DNA of 64,000 bases. It comes from Gemmatimonadaceae bacterium. GTDB lineage: Bacteria > Gemmatimonadota > Gemmatimonadetes > Gemmatimonadales > Gemmatimonadaceae. Below are positions 7,699-33,387 of this stretch, piece by piece (positions within the stretch are counted from its first letter, which is position 1; each line of letters starts with the position of its first letter). The notes below the pieces were generated by a model, which did no database searches, was not told the DNA's origin, and saw nothing but the letters and a program-made list of their open reading frames with translations. The stretch is from the NCBI GenBank assembly GCA_019186945.1, contig JABAQJ010000003.1, positions 164,531 through 228,530 of the forward strand, written 5' to 3'. Position numbers and translations under genes: made by a program.

Positions 7699-8299
7699 CC
7701 TTCAGGCCTTTCTCGAACGGCTGAGCGCGCTCCCCCCGGAAACGCTTTTCGGCGCCATGGCCGTACTGGCTGCCCTGGAGAACGTGTTCCCGCCAATCCC
7801 AGCAGACGTGCTCGTTGCCTTCGGTGGGTTCATGGCCGCTCGCAACGGAGCCTCGCCCTGGTCAGCGTTTCTTGCGGTGTGGATCGGCAATGTTCTTGGA
7901 GCTATCGCGATGTACGTGGTTGGCCGGCGCCTTGGCGCCGACCTTGTGACCAGGCGGCTTCACCTGCATCCGGGCAGCAACGCGGAATCGCGAATACGAC
8001 GCTGGCACGACCGGTATGGCATCGGCGCACTATTCATGAGTCGTTTCGTTCCCGGCATCAGGGCTGTCATGCCTCCTATCGCCGGTAGCCTCCGGATACC
8101 GTTGCCGGTTGTAGCGACGGCGATCGCCAGCGCATCGGCGCTTTTCTATGGCCTCGTGACGTGGCTCGCATTCAACGCGGGGGCCAACTGGGAGGTGCTC
8201 GTTGAGCAAGTGAGACAGTTGGGCATCTGGTCGGCGTTTGGGGCTGGGGGTATCCTGGCAATAGCCCTCGCGATCGCGTGGCGCCGCCGACATCGGTGA
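7691..8299 (+). CDS. DedA family integral membrane protein
   Basis: The 202-residue membrane protein has the DedA signature: ENVFPPIPADVLVAFGGFMAAR near the N-terminus and FMSRFVPGIRAVMPPIAG with the conserved FXXXR and proline. About four or five hydrophobic segments are visible. DedA proteins are implicated in undecaprenyl-phosphate or phospholipid recycling and membrane homeostasis. Which one applies here cannot be told from sequence. It overlaps ispF at its start and the recombinase gene (GTGA) at its end. Confidence 0.88.
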   Translation: MGSLQAFLERLSALPPETLFGAMAVLAALENVFPPIPADVLVAFGGFMAARNGASPWSAFLAVWIGNVLGAIAMYVVGRRLGADLVTRRLHLHPGSNAESRIRRWHDRYGIGALFMSRFVPGIRAVMPPIAGSLRIPLPVVATAIASASALFYGLVTWLAFNAGANWEVLVEQVRQLGIWSAFGAGGILAIALAIAWRRRHR

Positions 8300-9216
8300 A
8301 CGGCAATCGCCTGCCGTCGGCGGCCGCGCGGGATTTCTTCCTCGAACGGTTCGACGATTTCCTCGCGCTCGAACAAGGCGCCTCCCCGCGGACGCGCGAA
8401 GCCTACGGCCGGGACATCGCTCGATTGGCGCGCTATCTCGCTGAAGCTGGGGTCGCTCATCCGCGAGACGTTCAGGTCAAGGATCTCCGTCGCTTCGTCT
8501 TCGCCTTGAAAGATGCTGGCCTCTCCCCCGAGTCGATCCGTCGGTCGGTTTCGGCCATCCGGACCTACTTCCGTTTCCTCCTCTCAGAAGCGGTGGTGCA
8601 GGCGGATCCGAGCGAGCAGCTCGAACTCCCGAAACGCTGGCGAACGCTTCCCGATGTCCTGACCGTTGCCGAGGTGGAGCGGCTGCTGGACGCGCCAACC
8701 CTCGATGACGATCTGGCATTTCGTGATCGCGCCATGCTGGAAGTTGGCTATGGCGCCGGACTTCGGGTTTCCGAGTGGATTGCCCTCGAATCGAAGGATG
8801 TGTCGGTCGAGGACGGCGTGGTGCGCGTCTTCGGCAAGGGAGGAAAGGAGCGGCTCGTCCCGCTGGGGCGAAAGGCCATGGCAGCAGTGGCTATCTACCA
8901 GCGAGAACTTCGCCCACGGCTCGAGCGCGGACAGGGAAGGGGAGTGCTCTTTCTCAATGCGCGCGGGACTCCCCTTTCGCGCATGGGTGCCTGGAATATT
9001 CTGAGAAAATACGTCGACCGGGCCGGGATCGCGAAACACGTCTCTCCGCACACGCTCCGTCATTCGTTCGCAACGCATTTGCTGGAGGGCGGGGCTGACC
9101 TTCGTGCCGTCCAGGACATGCTCGGCCATGCCGACATCTCGACCACGCAGATCTACACCCACATTGACCGCGAGCATTTGCGCTACGTGCACCGCCAGTT
9201 CCATCCGCGTGGCTGA
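8296..9216 (+). CDS. Tyrosine recombinase XerC/XerD
   Basis: Site-specific recombinase of the XerCD type, acting with its partner and FtsK at dif to resolve chromosome dimers. The N-terminal SAM-like DNA-binding domain (FFLERFDDFLALEQGASPRTREAY) is followed by a catalytic domain with Arg (GAGLRVSE), Lys (GKGGKER), HTLRHSFATHLLEGGADLR, LGHADISTTQIYTH and the nucleophilic Tyr. I chose GTG 8296, which makes a GTGA overlap with the DedA stop and gives 306 residues. A GTG at 8278 is also in frame. A dif-like site lies about 20 kb downstream. XerC and XerD cannot be told apart safely by eye. Confidence 0.93.
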   Translation: MNGNRLPSAAARDFFLERFDDFLALEQGASPRTREAYGRDIARLARYLAEAGVAHPRDVQVKDLRRFVFALKDAGLSPESIRRSVSAIRTYFRFLLSEAVVQADPSEQLELPKRWRTLPDVLTVAEVERLLDAPTLDDDLAFRDRAMLEVGYGAGLRVSEWIALESKDVSVEDGVVRVFGKGGKERLVPLGRKAMAAVAIYQRELRPRLERGQGRGVLFLNARGTPLSRMGAWNILRKYVDRAGIAKHVSPHTLRHSFATHLLEGGADLRAVQDMLGHADISTTQIYTHIDREHLRYVHRQFHPRG

Positions 9217-23879: not shown

Positions 23880-26268
23880 CCTGAACGGCGGTGTGCACAC
23901 CGGCTCGACCGGGACGGACGCCGCACCGCGACGTTCGGGTCTCATTGCTTCAGCCGTATTTGCGCTCTGCACGCTCGCGCTTGGTTTTCCGGCGCTGGCA
24001 GGGAAGTTCCTCGTCAATCCGTACAGCGACCAGTACATCGCAGGCTACGCGTTTCGTGAGTTCGCTGCGGCGACGTTGAAGGCTACCGGCGGATTCCCGC
24101 AGTGGAATCCCTATCTGTTCGGTGGCATGCCGTATGTCGCGGCCATGCACGGCGACATCTTCTACCCGACATTCCTCCTGCGACTGGTCATGCCGACGGA
24201 CATGGCCATGACGTGGGGCTTTATGATCCATCTCTTTCTCGCTGGAATCTGCACCTACGCCTTCCTCCGAGCGTTAGGCATCGGCTTCTTCGCGTCTATG
24301 GTGGGTGGAGTGGCGTACATGCTGAGTGGAAACGTCGCGGCTCTCGTTTCGCCAGGCCACGACGGCAAGCTGTTTATCAGCGCACTGCTCCCCATCATCC
24401 TCCTTGTCGTAACGCGACTGGTCCGCGATGGAAAACCGTGGGCGTTCGGCGCACTCGCATTCGCGGTAGGAATGGCAGTGCTGACCCCGCATCCGCAATT
24501 GCTTCAGTACCTCCTGCTTGCTGCGGGTGCATTCGGACTGCTTCTCGGTTTCGCCGATGTTGGGGAAGGGAAGCTGACGCGGCGAGTCGCAATGCGGCGT
24601 CTCGGACTCGCCGCCGCCGCAGTCGTCACCGGAGGGCTGATCGGTGCCATCCAGTTCCTTCCCGTGCGCGAATATGTCGCCTGGTCGCCACGAGCGACCG
24701 GAAAAGGATGGGAGGATGCCACGTCGTTCTCGATGCCGCCAGAAGAAATGATCAACTTCCTGCTGCCGCAGTTCAGCGGAATACTCGATCGCTACTGGGG
24801 CAGGAATGGCATCCACCTCCACAGCGAGTATCTCGGCGTCACCGTGATCCCGTTGGTGGCGCTCGCGTTCGGTCGCGATTCGTCACGCAGGACGCTCCTG
24901 TGGTTCTGGGCGGGAACGCTGGCCGTCACGCTGCTCTGGGCACTCGGTGGCAACACGCCCTTCTACCGTCTCGTTTATGCCGTCGTGCCTGGGACCAGGT
25001 TCTTTCGGGCGCCGAGTACGATCCTGTATCTCGTCTCGTTTTCGATAGCTGTACTGGCGGCACTGGGAGCGGAGCGCGCCCTCCGCGGGGAAATCACGCG
25101 GCGGTTCATGATGGGCTGGCTCGTTGTACTCGCCGGCATTGCCCTCACGGGAATTGCTGGGGGACTGACCAACCTCGGAGTTGCCATCGCGGGACCGGAC
25201 AGAACCGACGCCATCGTGGCGAACACGGGAGCCCTCCAGGCCGGAGCCTTTCGGATGTTCGTTTTCGCGGCGTTCCTCTTCGTGACGCTGTTCATGGTCC
25301 AAACCAGGCGCCTGTCACGGGACATGCGAGGGGTGCTCCTGATCGGCGTGATTGCCATAGACCTGTGGAGTGTCGCTCGGCTCTATTGGTCCTTCTCCGA
25401 ACCCGCGTCGAAGCTGTACGCCAGCGATTCGATCCTCGACGAGATCGTCAAGTCCACAAAGAATGAACCGGGTCGAGTCCTTTCACTCCAACTCGCCCCG
25501 TCTCAGGCCGTACACGACCCCTACCTCTGGGGCGATGGCCTCATGGTCCACAGGATTCGGTCCGTCCTCGGTTACCATGGGAACGAACTCGGGCGCTTTC
25601 AGCAACTCGGTGAGAAGCAGAATCAGTGGCGCCAGATCGCCAACCCGAACTTCTGGCGACTGCTCAACGTGCGGTATTTCCTTACCAACGTAGATGATGT
25701 GGGCATTCCTTCACTGAAGCGCCTTCAGGGGCCGATCAGGAACGCCGCCGGTACCGAGACATACCTTTTTGAACTGCCAGAGAGGCATCCTCTGGCGTGG
25801 GTGGCGCCGGTGATCGTGAAGGCTGGTGACGAAGCAGTACTTGCAACCGTACTTGACCCGCGCTTCGACGTTCGTGCGGCGGCGCTGTTCGACTCCGCGT
25901 CAGCGGTGATCGGCAAGACCATTGACCAACTCCCGGCGCCACTAACCACCACGGTGAAAACTCTCGCCTACGCGCCCGGGCAAATCTCACTCGAGCTTTC
26001 GGACGCCGCCCCGGAGGGTTCTGCGCTCGTCGTTTCCGAGAACTACTATCCGGGCTGGCGCGCGACCGTGGATGGCAAGCCCGCTGCAGTCAGTCGAGCC
26101 GACGTGACCCTGATGGGCGTGCCGTTGCCGAGCGGGGCGAAACGCATCGACTTGGTGTTCTCGAGCGACGCCTATCACACCGGCAAGTGGATCACGCTGG
26201 TCGCCCTGGGCGGCTCTCTCTTGGCATGTCTGGCGGGCGTCATCCAGGGGCGGACTCGAGGTGAGTGA
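23863..26268 (+). CDS. YfhO-family membrane glycosyltransferase-like protein
   Basis: An 801-residue multi-pass membrane protein of the YfhO type. About a dozen hydrophobic segments follow a short cytoplasmic N-terminus. The first outer loop holds an acidic motif YSDQ (Asp56) and FPQWNPYLFGGMPYV, as in GT-C enzymes. The C-terminal soluble domain ends in a beta-rich part (ENYYPGWRATVDGKPA) before a last helix. In Bacillus, YfhO moves a sugar from a polyprenyl carrier to lipoteichoic acid with CsbB making the carrier sugar. A diderm acceptor would differ. It overlaps both neighbours. Confidence 0.83.
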   Translation: MARLPDLNGGVHTGSTGTDAAPRRSGLIASAVFALCTLALGFPALAGKFLVNPYSDQYIAGYAFREFAAATLKATGGFPQWNPYLFGGMPYVAAMHGDIFYPTFLLRLVMPTDMAMTWGFMIHLFLAGICTYAFLRALGIGFFASMVGGVAYMLSGNVAALVSPGHDGKLFISALLPIILLVVTRLVRDGKPWAFGALAFAVGMAVLTPHPQLLQYLLLAAGAFGLLLGFADVGEGKLTRRVAMRRLGLAAAAVVTGGLIGAIQFLPVREYVAWSPRATGKGWEDATSFSMPPEEMINFLLPQFSGILDRYWGRNGIHLHSEYLGVTVIPLVALAFGRDSSRRTLLWFWAGTLAVTLLWALGGNTPFYRLVYAVVPGTRFFRAPSTILYLVSFSIAVLAALGAERALRGEITRRFMMGWLVVLAGIALTGIAGGLTNLGVAIAGPDRTDAIVANTGALQAGAFRMFVFAAFLFVTLFMVQTRRLSRDMRGVLLIGVIAIDLWSVARLYWSFSEPASKLYASDSILDEIVKSTKNEPGRVLSLQLAPSQAVHDPYLWGDGLMVHRIRSVLGYHGNELGRFQQLGEKQNQWRQIANPNFWRLLNVRYFLTNVDDVGIPSLKRLQGPIRNAAGTETYLFELPERHPLAWVAPVIVKAGDEAVLATVLDPRFDVRAAALFDSASAVIGKTIDQLPAPLTTTVKTLAYAPGQISLELSDAAPEGSALVVSENYYPGWRATVDGKPAAVSRADVTLMGVPLPSGAKRIDLVFSSDAYHTGKWITLVALGGSLLACLAGVIQGRTRGE

Positions 26269-26983
26269 ACGCGCTCTCGTCATTGTTCCGACGTTCAACG
26301 AACGCGATAACATCGTTCGTCTCATCGACGCTGCGCTCGCCCAGGATGAGCGGGTCGAAGTGCTCGTCGTCGACGACGGTTCACCGGACGGAACAGGCGC
26401 TTTGGTGGATGACCGTGCCGCGAATGACCCTCGAGTCCACATTATACATCGGCCAGCAAAATTAGGATTGGGAACGGCTTATCTCGCAGGCTTCAAGTGG
26501 GCACTGGAGCGCGAGTACGAGTTCGTCATGGAGATGGACGCCGACTTCTCGCACGATCCCGCCCACATCCCGCAGTTCCTGGAAAATGCGGCAGATGCCG
26601 ACCTCGTCCTCGGTTCCCGATACCGTGACGGGAAGGTCACCGTCGTCAACTGGCCTATCGGCCGACTGATGCTCTCATACGCCGCCAATATCTACGCCCG
26701 CTTCGCGACTGGCCTGCCGCTTTACGATGCCACTGGCGGCTTCAAGTGCTTTCGAAGACGTGTCCTCGAAGCCATCGACCTGGACGACGTACGAAGCAAT
26801 GGCTACGCCTTTCAGATCGAGATGTCGTTCAGAGCATGGAAGAAGGGCTTCCGTATCGTAGAGATACCGATCGTCTTCGTCGACCGAACCGAAGGCGAAA
26901 GCAAGATGTCGAAAAAGATCGTGCGCGAAGCCATTTGGATGGTTTGGCGACTAAGATGGTGGTCCATGACGGGCAGGGTGTGA
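26261..26983 (+). CDS. Polyprenol-phosphate mannosyltransferase-like GT2 (DPM1-type)
   Basis: Soluble GT2 enzyme of 240 residues without membrane helices. VIVPTFNERDNIVRLI, LVVDDGSPDGTG, the DxD-type motif EMDADFSHDPAHIPQF, and a C-terminal half with GYAFQIEMSFRAW and VDRTEGESKMSKKIV match dolichol/polyprenol-phosphate mannose synthases. It probably forms polyprenyl-phosphate-linked mannose or a related sugar for use by a GT-C enzyme such as the preceding YfhO-like protein. GTG 26261 overlaps the preceding gene by eight bases. Confidence 0.9.
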   Translation: MSERALVIVPTFNERDNIVRLIDAALAQDERVEVLVVDDGSPDGTGALVDDRAANDPRVHIIHRPAKLGLGTAYLAGFKWALEREYEFVMEMDADFSHDPAHIPQFLENAADADLVLGSRYRDGKVTVVNWPIGRLMLSYAANIYARFATGLPLYDATGGFKCFRRRVLEAIDLDDVRSNGYAFQIEMSFRAWKKGFRIVEIPIVFVDRTEGESKMSKKIVREAIWMVWRLRWWSMTGRV

Positions 26984-26984
26984 C

Positions 26985-27821
26985 GTGAGTCTGGCAGGTC
27001 GTCGCTTCTACAAGATGACGGGGTCGGGAAACGACTTCGTCTTCTTCGATGTACGTGACGTCCCAGCACCGGACCTCGAAGCCGCGTCGGTCATTGGCGC
27101 GATCTGCGAACGTCGCACGGGCATCGGGGCTGACGGTGTCGTTCTCTTGGAGAGCGACCCACGGCACCCATTCGGCATCCGATACTTCAATCGCGATGGC
27201 TCCCTCGCTGAACTCTGCGGAAACGCCTCGCTGTGCAGCGTCAACCTGGCCCGACACCTGAACATCGTTGGGGACGATGAGTGGTTCACATTCATGTCGT
27301 CCTCGGGCTCGCTTTTCGGTCGGCACACTCATGGATCGCCCGAAATCGGACTGGCGACCGTAACCGACATCGAGGCAGACTCCGCGATACCGCTCGGCAA
27401 ACACGAAAACCGCATCGGCTTCTCACGCGTCGGCGTACCCCATCTCGTCATCCTCGTCGACGACGTCGCGGACATCGATGTCGTTTCGCGTGGCAGGGAA
27501 CTTCGCCACTGGCCCTCACTCCGCGACGGTGCCAACGCCAACTTTGTCTCACCCCGCGGTTCCGGATGGGCAATTCGCACTTACGAGCGAGGTGTCGAAG
27601 ACGAAACCCTGGCTTGCGGGACTGGAGCGGTAGCGACTTGCGCCTTGCTTTCGGCGTGGCGATTGGCACCAAACGAGGTCCGCTTGCTGACGCGCTCTGA
27701 CTCGCCACTGCTTGCGCACACTCCCGACGCCCCCGGCGAAAGGCCAACGCTTCGTGGCGAGGGAAGGCTTCTGTTCACTGGCACTATCAATCAGATCGCC
27801 CCGGTAGCAGCAGACAAGTAG
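26985..27821 (+). CDS. dapF: Diaminopimelate epimerase, slightly divergent
   Basis: Converts LL- to meso-diaminopimelate for lysine and peptidoglycan. The 278 residues have both catalytic cysteines (ELCGNAS and LACGTGA), the N-terminal GSGNDF, and YERGVEDET with the substrate-binding Glu-Arg pair. Departures from the E. coli pattern are CGNASLC in place of CGNGARC, and GVPH in place of GNPH. Both catalytic residues remain, so activity is likely. Start GTG 26985. It is the last + strand gene before the terminus gap and runs straight towards the dif-like site. Confidence 0.9.
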   Translation: MSLAGRRFYKMTGSGNDFVFFDVRDVPAPDLEAASVIGAICERRTGIGADGVVLLESDPRHPFGIRYFNRDGSLAELCGNASLCSVNLARHLNIVGDDEWFTFMSSSGSLFGRHTHGSPEIGLATVTDIEADSAIPLGKHENRIGFSRVGVPHLVILVDDVADIDVVSRGRELRHWPSLRDGANANFVSPRGSGWAIRTYERGVEDETLACGTGAVATCALLSAWRLAPNEVRLLTRSDSPLLAHTPDAPGERPTLRGEGRLLFTGTINQIAPVAADK

Positions 27822-28055: not shown

Positions 28056-28082
28056 TGTGGGAGAAGCCGCCTGTTCTCCACA
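28056..28082. other. Imperfect hairpin next to the dif-like site
   Basis: TGTGGGAGAA at 28056-28065 can pair with TTCTCCACA at 28074-28082, with one bulged G and an eight-base loop. No T-run follows in either direction. It ends five bases before the dif-like site. It may be part of the dapF 3' end or an accessory protein-binding site; the sequence does not decide. Confidence 0.4.
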
Positions 28083-28087
28083 GTGTG

Positions 28088-28115
28088 AGTTTACATAACA
28101 TTTATTATGCGGCCT
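28088..28115 (-). other. dif: Chromosomal dif site (XerC/XerD recombination site)
   Basis: A 28-bp site made of 11-bp arm, 6-bp centre, 11-bp arm. On the + strand it reads AGTTTACATAA, centre CATTTA, then TTATGCGGCCT. Read on the - strand, its right arm is TTATGTAAACT, identical to the XerD-side arm of B. subtilis dif as I recall it, and the whole site matches E. coli dif at about 20 of 28 positions, with the inner CATAA / TTATG palindrome intact. It sits in the convergent gap where gene orientation flips, as expected for the terminus. A Xer recombinase gene is on the same contig. Confidence 0.85.
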
Positions 28116-28132: not shown

Positions 28133-28166
28133 ACAAAGGGCGATGCCCATTGGCATCGCCCTTTGT
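28133..28166. terminator. Perfect 15-bp hairpin, bidirectional terminator
   Basis: ACAAAGGGCGATGCC (28133-28147) pairs perfectly with 28152-28166 across a CATT loop. It lies 22 bases after the stop of the leftward TPR gene and also downstream of dapF. Both ends of the stem are A/T-rich, so each strand ends in a short U-containing tail. It probably stops transcription from both sides near the terminus. Confidence 0.8.
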
Positions 28167-28188: not shown

Positions 28189-28851
28189 CTACCCCTTTGC
28201 CGGGACAGCGCTCAACTCACCAACCCGGAGCTTCGCCTCGGCACTGAACGGATTCGTCTCATCGTCCGCCATGGCCTTCCAAATCTTCAGGGCCTCATCC
28301 CGTTTGCCTGCTGCCGCAAGAGTCCGGGCTGCATCGGACCGGTACTGGCCGCGGTCGGAGTCAGTCGCTGCCGCGTCCGCAGCCTTTAGGTACTCCGCGC
28401 TCGCCTCCGCAAGCTTGCCGCCCTGCTCGAGTCCCGCAGCACGAATCGCGTGCAGCGACGCCTTGAACGGCCCGGAAGCGCTCACGCCCTCCAAGGCCTT
28501 CAGGCCCTCGTCCACCTTGTTCTCGTCAAAGAAGACCTGCGCGAGCAGCAGTCTGCCTTGGTCACCGGCCATCGTTCCGCCATACCGCTGCACGAGCTTC
28601 TGCAGATCGGACTGTGCCAATGCCAGATTTCCGGCCATGAACGATCGCTGAGCTTCTGCCAGCGACCGGCCAGCGTTGGCTTCCTTCTTCTGCGCGGAGG
28701 ATCGCCACAAGAGACCAGCAGCAACCAGTACCGCGACCCCGATGGTCGCCAGTGAGACCTGGCGGGTATGCGCCTTGAGCCACTCGGCGAGATTCTCCGC
28801 ATGCTCATCAAAGTCCAACGGCGGCTTCGCCGCTTCGCCCGTCTTCGTCAT
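28189..28851 (-). CDS. YfgM-like membrane-anchored TPR protein
   Basis: A 220-residue protein with a cytoplasmic N-terminal helix (DFDEHAENLAEWLKAHTRQV), one transmembrane segment (about residues 34-50) and a periplasmic TPR-type region. Helical repeats run from AEAQRSFMAGNLALAQSDLQKLV to DEALKIWKAMAD. This is the plan of YfgM, an ancillary SecYEG/BamB-associated protein. The gene is last in the right-arm gene series that includes der, which neighbours yfgM in E. coli. An upstream AAAGGG serves as ribosome binding site. The function is inferred from architecture only. Confidence 0.7.
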   Translation of the reverse strand: MTKTGEAAKPPLDFDEHAENLAEWLKAHTRQVSLATIGVAVLVAAGLLWRSSAQKKEANAGRSLAEAQRSFMAGNLALAQSDLQKLVQRYGGTMAGDQGRLLLAQVFFDENKVDEGLKALEGVSASGPFKASLHAIRAAGLEQGGKLAEASAEYLKAADAAATDSDRGQYRSDAARTLAAAGKRDEALKIWKAMADDETNPFSAEAKLRVGELSAVPAKG

Positions 28852-32395: not shown

Positions 32396-33387
32396 TGATC
32401 GTGCTCAGCTCGAAGTTCGCGGCTCATGAGTTCGCTCATCGCCTGACGAGGCGTCTGGTTCTCAAACAGGATCCGGTGCACAGCCTCGACGATCGGCATA
32501 TCCACCCGCTCGCGTCGTGCAAGAGCCCACGCGCTCTCGGTGTTTATGACGCCTTCAGCTACGCTGTCACGGCCAGCAAGGATATCGCGAAGCGGGATGC
32601 CCTTCCCCACGTCCAGACCCACCGCACGGTTGCGGCTGAGCGAGCCGGTACAGGTCAGCACCAGGTCGCCCATACCCGCCAAGCCGGCGAACGTCGCCGC
32701 GCGGGCACCTAACGCCACGCCCAGTCGAGTCATCTCGGCCAGGCCGCGCGTGATCAGGGCAGCTCGCGAGTTGAGACCGAGGTCCAGGCCCTCGGCGATT
32801 CCCGTGGCGACCGCCATCACGTTCTTCAATGCCCCCCCAAGTTCAACGCCGCGCACATCGTCGTTTGTGTAGATGCGCAGTGTGGAACCCGACAGAATCC
32901 GCTGCACAGCTTCGGCGGCTTTCGGCGACTCTGATGCAGCGACAATCGCCGTCGGATGGCCGCGCGCCACTTCCATCGCGAAACTCGGCCCGGATAGCGC
33001 AACCACCCCGCGACCGTGACACTCGGCGCTCACCACTTCGGTCATCAAGGCCAGGGATTGTCGTTCGATCCCCTTGGTGGCGACGACGAGCAGCGCGTCG
33101 GCGCCGACCTCTGTCGTTCCGGCACGGACGACTTCGCGGAGCACATGAGATGGCGCCACGTACACGATGATTTCGGCTCCATGCAACGCCAAGCCCATCT
33201 CGTTAGTGGCTTGAACGGACGGATGGATTTGTATGCTCGGCAGGAAGCGCGGGTTCTGACGATCCCTGTTGATGGCCAAGGCGACGTCCGGCTCGCGGGC
33301 CCAGAGCATCACACCGTGCCCGTTTCCTGCCAGCTGATGAGCCAGGGCTGTTCCCCATGCACCTGCTCCTGCCACTGCCACACGCAT
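32392..33387 (-). CDS. gpsA: NAD(P)-dependent glycerol-3-phosphate dehydrogenase
   Basis: Reduces dihydroxyacetone phosphate to sn-glycerol 3-phosphate for phospholipids. The 331 residues show the dinucleotide motif VAVAGAGAWGTALA, VVATKGIE, SGPSFAMEVARG and the catalytic-Lys segment ELGGALKNVMAVATGI. The open frame extends upstream, but the ATG at 33387 overlaps the plsY stop (TGATG) and matches the family N-terminus. It makes the substrate used by PlsY, encoded just upstream. Confidence 0.97.
   Translation of the reverse strand: MRVAVAGAGAWGTALAHQLAGNGHGVMLWAREPDVALAINRDRQNPRFLPSIQIHPSVQATNEMGLALHGAEIIVYVAPSHVLREVVRAGTTEVGADALLVVATKGIERQSLALMTEVVSAECHGRGVVALSGPSFAMEVARGHPTAIVAASESPKAAEAVQRILSGSTLRIYTNDDVRGVELGGALKNVMAVATGIAEGLDLGLNSRAALITRGLAEMTRLGVALGARAATFAGLAGMGDLVLTCTGSLSRNRAVGLDVGKGIPLRDILAGRDSVAEGVINTESAWALARRERVDMPIVEAVHRILFENQTPRQAMSELMSRELRAEHDQ

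Follow-up and report, generated by a model that had tools for sequence, protein, structure and literature searches.

The window analysed here, a stretch of 64,000 nucleotides (G000:C8:164531-228530) from the 3.95-Mb genome of a Gemmatimonadaceae bacterium assembled in 20 contigs, contains a 28-bp dif site at positions 28088..28115 which, read from the XerC arm to the XerD arm, lies on the - strand as AGGCCGCATAATAAATGTTATGTAAACT. The + strand reads AGTTTACATAA CATTTA TTATGCGGCCT and the - strand AGGCCGCATAA TAAATG TTATGTAAACT; sequence, coordinates and arms agree with the original prediction of two arms of 11 bp each, separated by a 6-bp centre. The XerD-side arm, TTATGTAAACT on the - strand (28088..28098), is invariant across 21 aligned sites that had been preselected by the search pattern. 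It is followed by the centre, CATTTA (28099..28104), and by the XerC-side arm, AGGCCGCATAA on the - strand (28105..28115), where relatives vary more. This XerD-side arm had been proposed to be identical to that of B. subtilis dif, and it matches at 11/11 positions the arm in what we take to be the B. subtilis string. Over the whole site the identity is 20/28 to E. coli dif, the level estimated originally and counted here against a string verified by its presence in 3,076 E. coli records, and likewise 20/28 to the B. subtilis string, while elsewhere in the 64 kb no position exceeds 16 and 17, respectively.

The site lies between dapF (26985..27821, + strand, TIGR00652), the final + strand gene ahead of dif, and a gene for a TPR_21 protein (28189..28851, - strand, PF09976), the first - strand gene past it. 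The gap between these two convergent genes is 367 bp and gene direction switches here, as had been noticed from the sequence; by simple gene calls it is also, as claimed, the longest such intergenic gap, in a tie with one gene-calling artefact. A perfect hairpin, ACAAAGGGCGATGCC-CATT-GGCATCGCCCTTTGT (28133..28166), lies between the convergent genes and is probably a bidirectional transcription terminator for both.

The expectation that the 28-mer would occur once was borne out, with a single match at up to 3 mismatches in the whole 3.95-Mb genome and 0 for a reversed-pattern control. A strict pattern found dif-like sites in 43/108 genomes of the family and a wider pattern found them in 77/163 genomes of the order, again with 0 matches for the reversed control in each case. 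Comparison with relatives, which had also been suggested, places the site at a conserved spot: 20/20 family flanks tested have dapF on one side of dif and the TPR gene on the other, and gene order is largely kept from about -28 to +19 kb in the 7 genera compared in detail, with the right side of this block displaced in one genome (G014). A pattern scan of xerD loci in other phyla (L044-L123) found no dif. As a separate observation, a gene of filamentous-phage type with a zonular occludens toxin domain adjoins dif in E. coli EC4 (L290, 1-1106), which fits the integration of a phage at dif.

Recombinases, KOPS and the replication terminus

The xerD gene (8278..9216, + strand, 312 aa) is located in the window 19.8 kb from dif, and its product scores 360.9 bits with NCBIfam model TIGR02225, against a cut-off of 329.6; the closest named XerD relatives share 62-72% identity with it and come from MAGs of Gemmatimonadetes and Gemmatimonadaceae. 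The gene for XerC is on contig C1, directly upstream of hslV and hslU (the hslVU operon). Its best-scoring model is that for XerC, at 322.7 bits, which is below the curated cut-off of 335. FtsK_gamma is also encoded in this genome (6e-25). A single-recombinase system, prompted by the presence of xerD in the window, was considered and rejected because XerC was found in the hslVU operon. An integron integrase (TIGR02249, 394.7 bits), encoded at G000:C13:19853-20455 (L004), accounts for the third recombinase.

As in E. coli, KOPS of the form GGGNAGGG converge on dif in this genome. Their orientation is 18:1 toward dif on the left 188 kb and 1:9 (+:-) on the right 47 kb, a polarity that ranks second when 56 octamers composed of the same letters are compared. 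The switch is bracketed by the last + copy at -1.1 kb and the first - copy at +4.5 kb of dif. In the window, KOPS-like GGGAAGGG (24563..24570, + strand), GGGCAGGG (26971..26978, + strand, the nearest on the left) and GGGAAGGG (32600..32607, - strand, the nearest on the right) are all directed toward dif. In 6/7 relatives dif likewise falls within the interval of the KOPS switch, the exception being G001.

In 27/29 Gemmatimonadaceae genomes searched, xerD and dif are 17-24 kb apart, with xerD toward the XerD arm (the remaining 2 have them on separate contigs), and in a second family xerD and dif share a contig in G202 (~27 kb apart) and G225 (~16 kb). In the window, unlike in E. coli and B. subtilis, xerD belongs to a conserved block and lies 20 kb from dif. 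The XerS/difSL and XerH/difH systems likewise pair a site near the terminus with a linked recombinase gene; here, however, there are two recombinases, and the xerD-dif linkage (17-24 kb) is explicable by conserved synteny. We rejected functional coupling as a reading of this linkage: most of the compared genomes share the gene order of the -28 to +19 kb block, so that linkage by itself is no proof.

Cumulative GC skew had been expected to turn within a few hundred bases of 28.1 kb, but its maximum on contig C8 is at 168.5 kb (about 3.9 kb in the window), 24 kb from dif. The best two-mean skew change point within about 60 kb lies 8 kb from dif. The distance of the skew peak from dif ranges between -45 and +15 kb across 8 genomes, and a systematic offset toward xerD was rejected, since the shift point in these genomes scatters to both sides. 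This scatter agrees with the published view that termination does not occur strictly at dif (PMC3025954). The + genes of the window left of dif have a third-position skew of -0.115, which is lagging-like, and + genes further left one of -0.003. The + genes at 4000-28000, from the skew peak to dif, are lagging-like in coding-strand GC3 skew yet left-replichore-like in KOPS. Right-hand forks may often overrun dif by about 20 kb. KOPS polarity follows dif more closely than GC skew does.

With the own assembly in 20 contigs, the distance from origin to dif was taken from two relatives: dnaA and dif are separated by 41.6% of the replicon in G043 (one contig, 4.64 Mb) and by 48.1% in G073 (a 5.3-Mb contig treated as the whole replicon). 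We conclude that 28088-28115 is the chromosomal dif site, of the XerCD type and near the replication terminus. The terminus assignment made from the sequence is upheld by the KOPS flip at the site, the presence of genes for XerC, XerD and FtsK-gamma, the position conserved throughout the family, and the separation from dnaA in the two relatives. The site is like those of E. coli and B. subtilis in its 28-bp two-arm structure, its XerC/XerD pair, FtsK-gamma and its probable terminus position, and dif itself is an already-known type of site.

A DnaA-box-like element beside the XerD arm

Adjoining dif is an element that formed no part of the original prediction and that first emerged from an alignment of the dif flanks of relatives. 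In the window it is the DnaA-box-like 9-mer TTCTCCACA (28074..28082, + strand), which starts at -14, lies 5 bp outside the XerD arm and is identical to the DnaA-box consensus. It is the sole TTNTCCACA in the window (8/8 match) and one of 2 in 235 kb of contig. Relatives usually carry a doublet, and the one box of the window appears to be a single remaining copy.

Boxes were counted at 77 dif sites that had been found without using the box element. A TTNTCCACA match scoring 7/8 or more stands no farther than 40 bp from dif on the XerD side of 76/77 sites and on the XerC side of 3/77; with one genome taken per genus, the corresponding figures are 27/28 and 2/28 (Fisher 3e-12). Control windows placed 100-400 bp away gave 0-5 box matches each for the 77 sites. 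There are 1 or 2, occasionally 3, TTNTCCACA 9-mers, all oriented alike, and the one closest to dif usually begins 14-15 bp away from the XerD-arm edge. The 9-mer starts cluster on one strand at -25/-24 and -15/-14, a 10-bp period, and the spacing from box to dif is constant within about 1 bp across 28 genera. The doublet is not obligatory, because both boxes are present at 6/8 or better in 46/77 sites. E. coli dif, the sole outgroup tested, is without such boxes at its XerD arm (best match 5/8), whereas the dif of the window has one; with E. coli alone as outgroup, boxes at dif may extend more widely.

A search made without reference to dif, using the doublet query TTMTCCACA-N-TTMTCCAC with up to 1 mismatch in 248 genomes of the phylum, gave 38 matches against 3 for the reversed pattern. 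These 38 doublets fall at dif (25), at origin-type loci (8) and elsewhere (5). At 24 of the 38 the doublet is 6-7 bp outside the XerD arm of dif (23 read in sequence, and G073 by coordinates), and the search gave 9 dif sites that the dif patterns had not listed. In G271 (L282; family f5) the doublet is on the XerC side of dif, opposite to all others, which could mean a flipped arrangement in that clade.

Of the eight origin-type doublets, one lies at dnaA-dnaN (G248), three about 1 kb after parA, one just after parB and three just after a bactofilin gene. The parA/parB and bactofilin doublets of relatives (L263, L264, L267, L268, L269, L276 and L280), which in G073 are 112 kb from dnaA, mark what we infer to be candidate replication origins away from dnaA; L269 and L276 have an extra box about 67 bp upstream of the doublet. 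In the genome of the window, the rpmH-dnaA gap holds two copies of TTTTCCACA, which lie 54 and 17 bp upstream of the dnaA start codon (ATG), and the encoded DnaA is intact and above the TIGR00362 cut-off.

A role for the boxes as 3' regulatory sequence of dapF was considered and rejected: their spacing tracks dif and not the dapF stop, and three genomes of family f6 are without dapF there. In these genomes (G310, G311 and G314) the doublet and dif occur together with dapF not adjacent. The doublet thus stays with dif where other genes adjoin it, which indicates that the element belongs to dif and not to the neighbouring genes.

Possible ligands and function of the element

The reading we favour, and consider reasonably probable from the sequence comparisons, is that this is a standard XerCD-FtsK dif carrying an added TTNTCCACA box element, whose ligand would most likely be DnaA and which would modulate dimer resolution. 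In E. coli, FtsK travelling along KOPS activates XerD at dif. By homology, XerC and XerD would bind their respective arms, and FtsK, guided by converging KOPS, would reach the dif-bound XerCD and activate XerD, leading to dimer resolution. DnaA, or a factor sharing its box, may dock beside XerD via the boxes. The 9-mer itself is the consensus DnaA box, and the doublet is found at probable origins; both make DnaA the likeliest ligand. The spacing held within about 1 bp, together with the period of one turn, suggests a complex of proteins occupying a single face of the DNA, which might touch or flank XerD, or shape the synapse, and so modulate dimer resolution. DnaA binding, contact with XerD and an effect on recombination are all predictions from sequence.

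DnaA sites at E. coli oriC are spaced less tightly than this 10-bp register, so another protein could be the ligand. The doublet might then be bound by a non-DnaA architectural or terminus protein, acting as PepA and ArgR do at cer but on the XerD side. A fixed helical phase by a recombinase arm is indeed the geometry of an accessory nucleoprotein site, and the register is unusual for DnaA; against this, the 9-mer is the DnaA-box consensus and scarce otherwise (2 in 235 kb), and the identical doublet occurs at dnaA-dnaN and parAB-type loci. We regard a ligand of this kind as rather unlikely.

That the site is a plain dif, with the TTNTCCACA motifs a functionless flank inherited by common descent and synteny, would fit the family-wide synteny of the block around dif and the single box left in the window. 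The rest of the flank is nevertheless unconserved (mean information per position is 0.33 bits on the left, boxes included, and 0.15 on the right, compared with 1.6 in dif), the proteins of neighbouring genes are 33-57% identical, box spacing is fixed across 28 genera, and the boxes go with dif in genomes that have no adjoining dapF. It is largely shown that the boxes occur in independent gene contexts and are absent from other flanks at equal divergence, and we hold this explanation to be improbable. We give equally little credence to the boxes being a DnaA-regulatory or titration site at the last-replicated locus that times initiation and has no Xer role. E. coli DnaA boxes outside oriC, at datA and DARS, do regulate DnaA (PMC4585315), but 1-2 boxes are few for titration, and one would not expect them to keep their distance from the XerD arm to within about 1 bp. 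Finally, mobile elements carry Xer sites too, but that the 28-mer is the Xer site of an integrated element or plasmid and not the chromosomal dif is very improbable and already contradicted, as it is unique, lies at a family-wide syntenic spot at the KOPS switch and has no mobile genes beside it.

The favoured arrangement, a recombination core with an adjoining accessory-protein sequence, resembles the plasmid sites cer and psi (PepA, ArgR, ArcA). The accessory sequences of cer are about 180 bp (2017 Xer review, PMC5357621), whereas the element in Gemmatimonadota spans about 20 bp beside the XerD arm of a chromosomal site. The DnaA-box clusters of oriC, datA and DARS likewise contain TTNTCCACA 9-mers in one orientation; in contrast, the Gemmatimonadota boxes are at the terminus beside dif, not at an origin or regulatory locus. 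No description of DnaA-box-like elements at dif was found in literature on DnaA box, DnaA binding or TTATCCACA combined with dif, XerC or XerD, within a scope of titles and abstracts and with subscription papers mostly outside it. The portions covered of a 2026 FEMS review (PMC13220808), the 2017 Xer review and the 2011 dif survey do not mention boxes at dif. This suggests that the box element at dif is undescribed. We regard the combined feature as a variant of the known dif.

A chromosomal dif is customarily described as a 28-bp core plus FtsK. The conserved doublet, set at a constant distance from the XerD arm, points to an accessory site belonging to the chromosomal dif itself and to a possible molecular connection between the initiation of replication and the final step of segregation. 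In practical terms, the doublet search locates divergent dif sites, as with the 9 extra ones. More tentatively, and in our view somewhat doubtfully, DnaA beside XerD might gate dimer resolution or read out completion of the terminus throughout the class Gemmatimonadetes, with one module serving at both origin and terminus.
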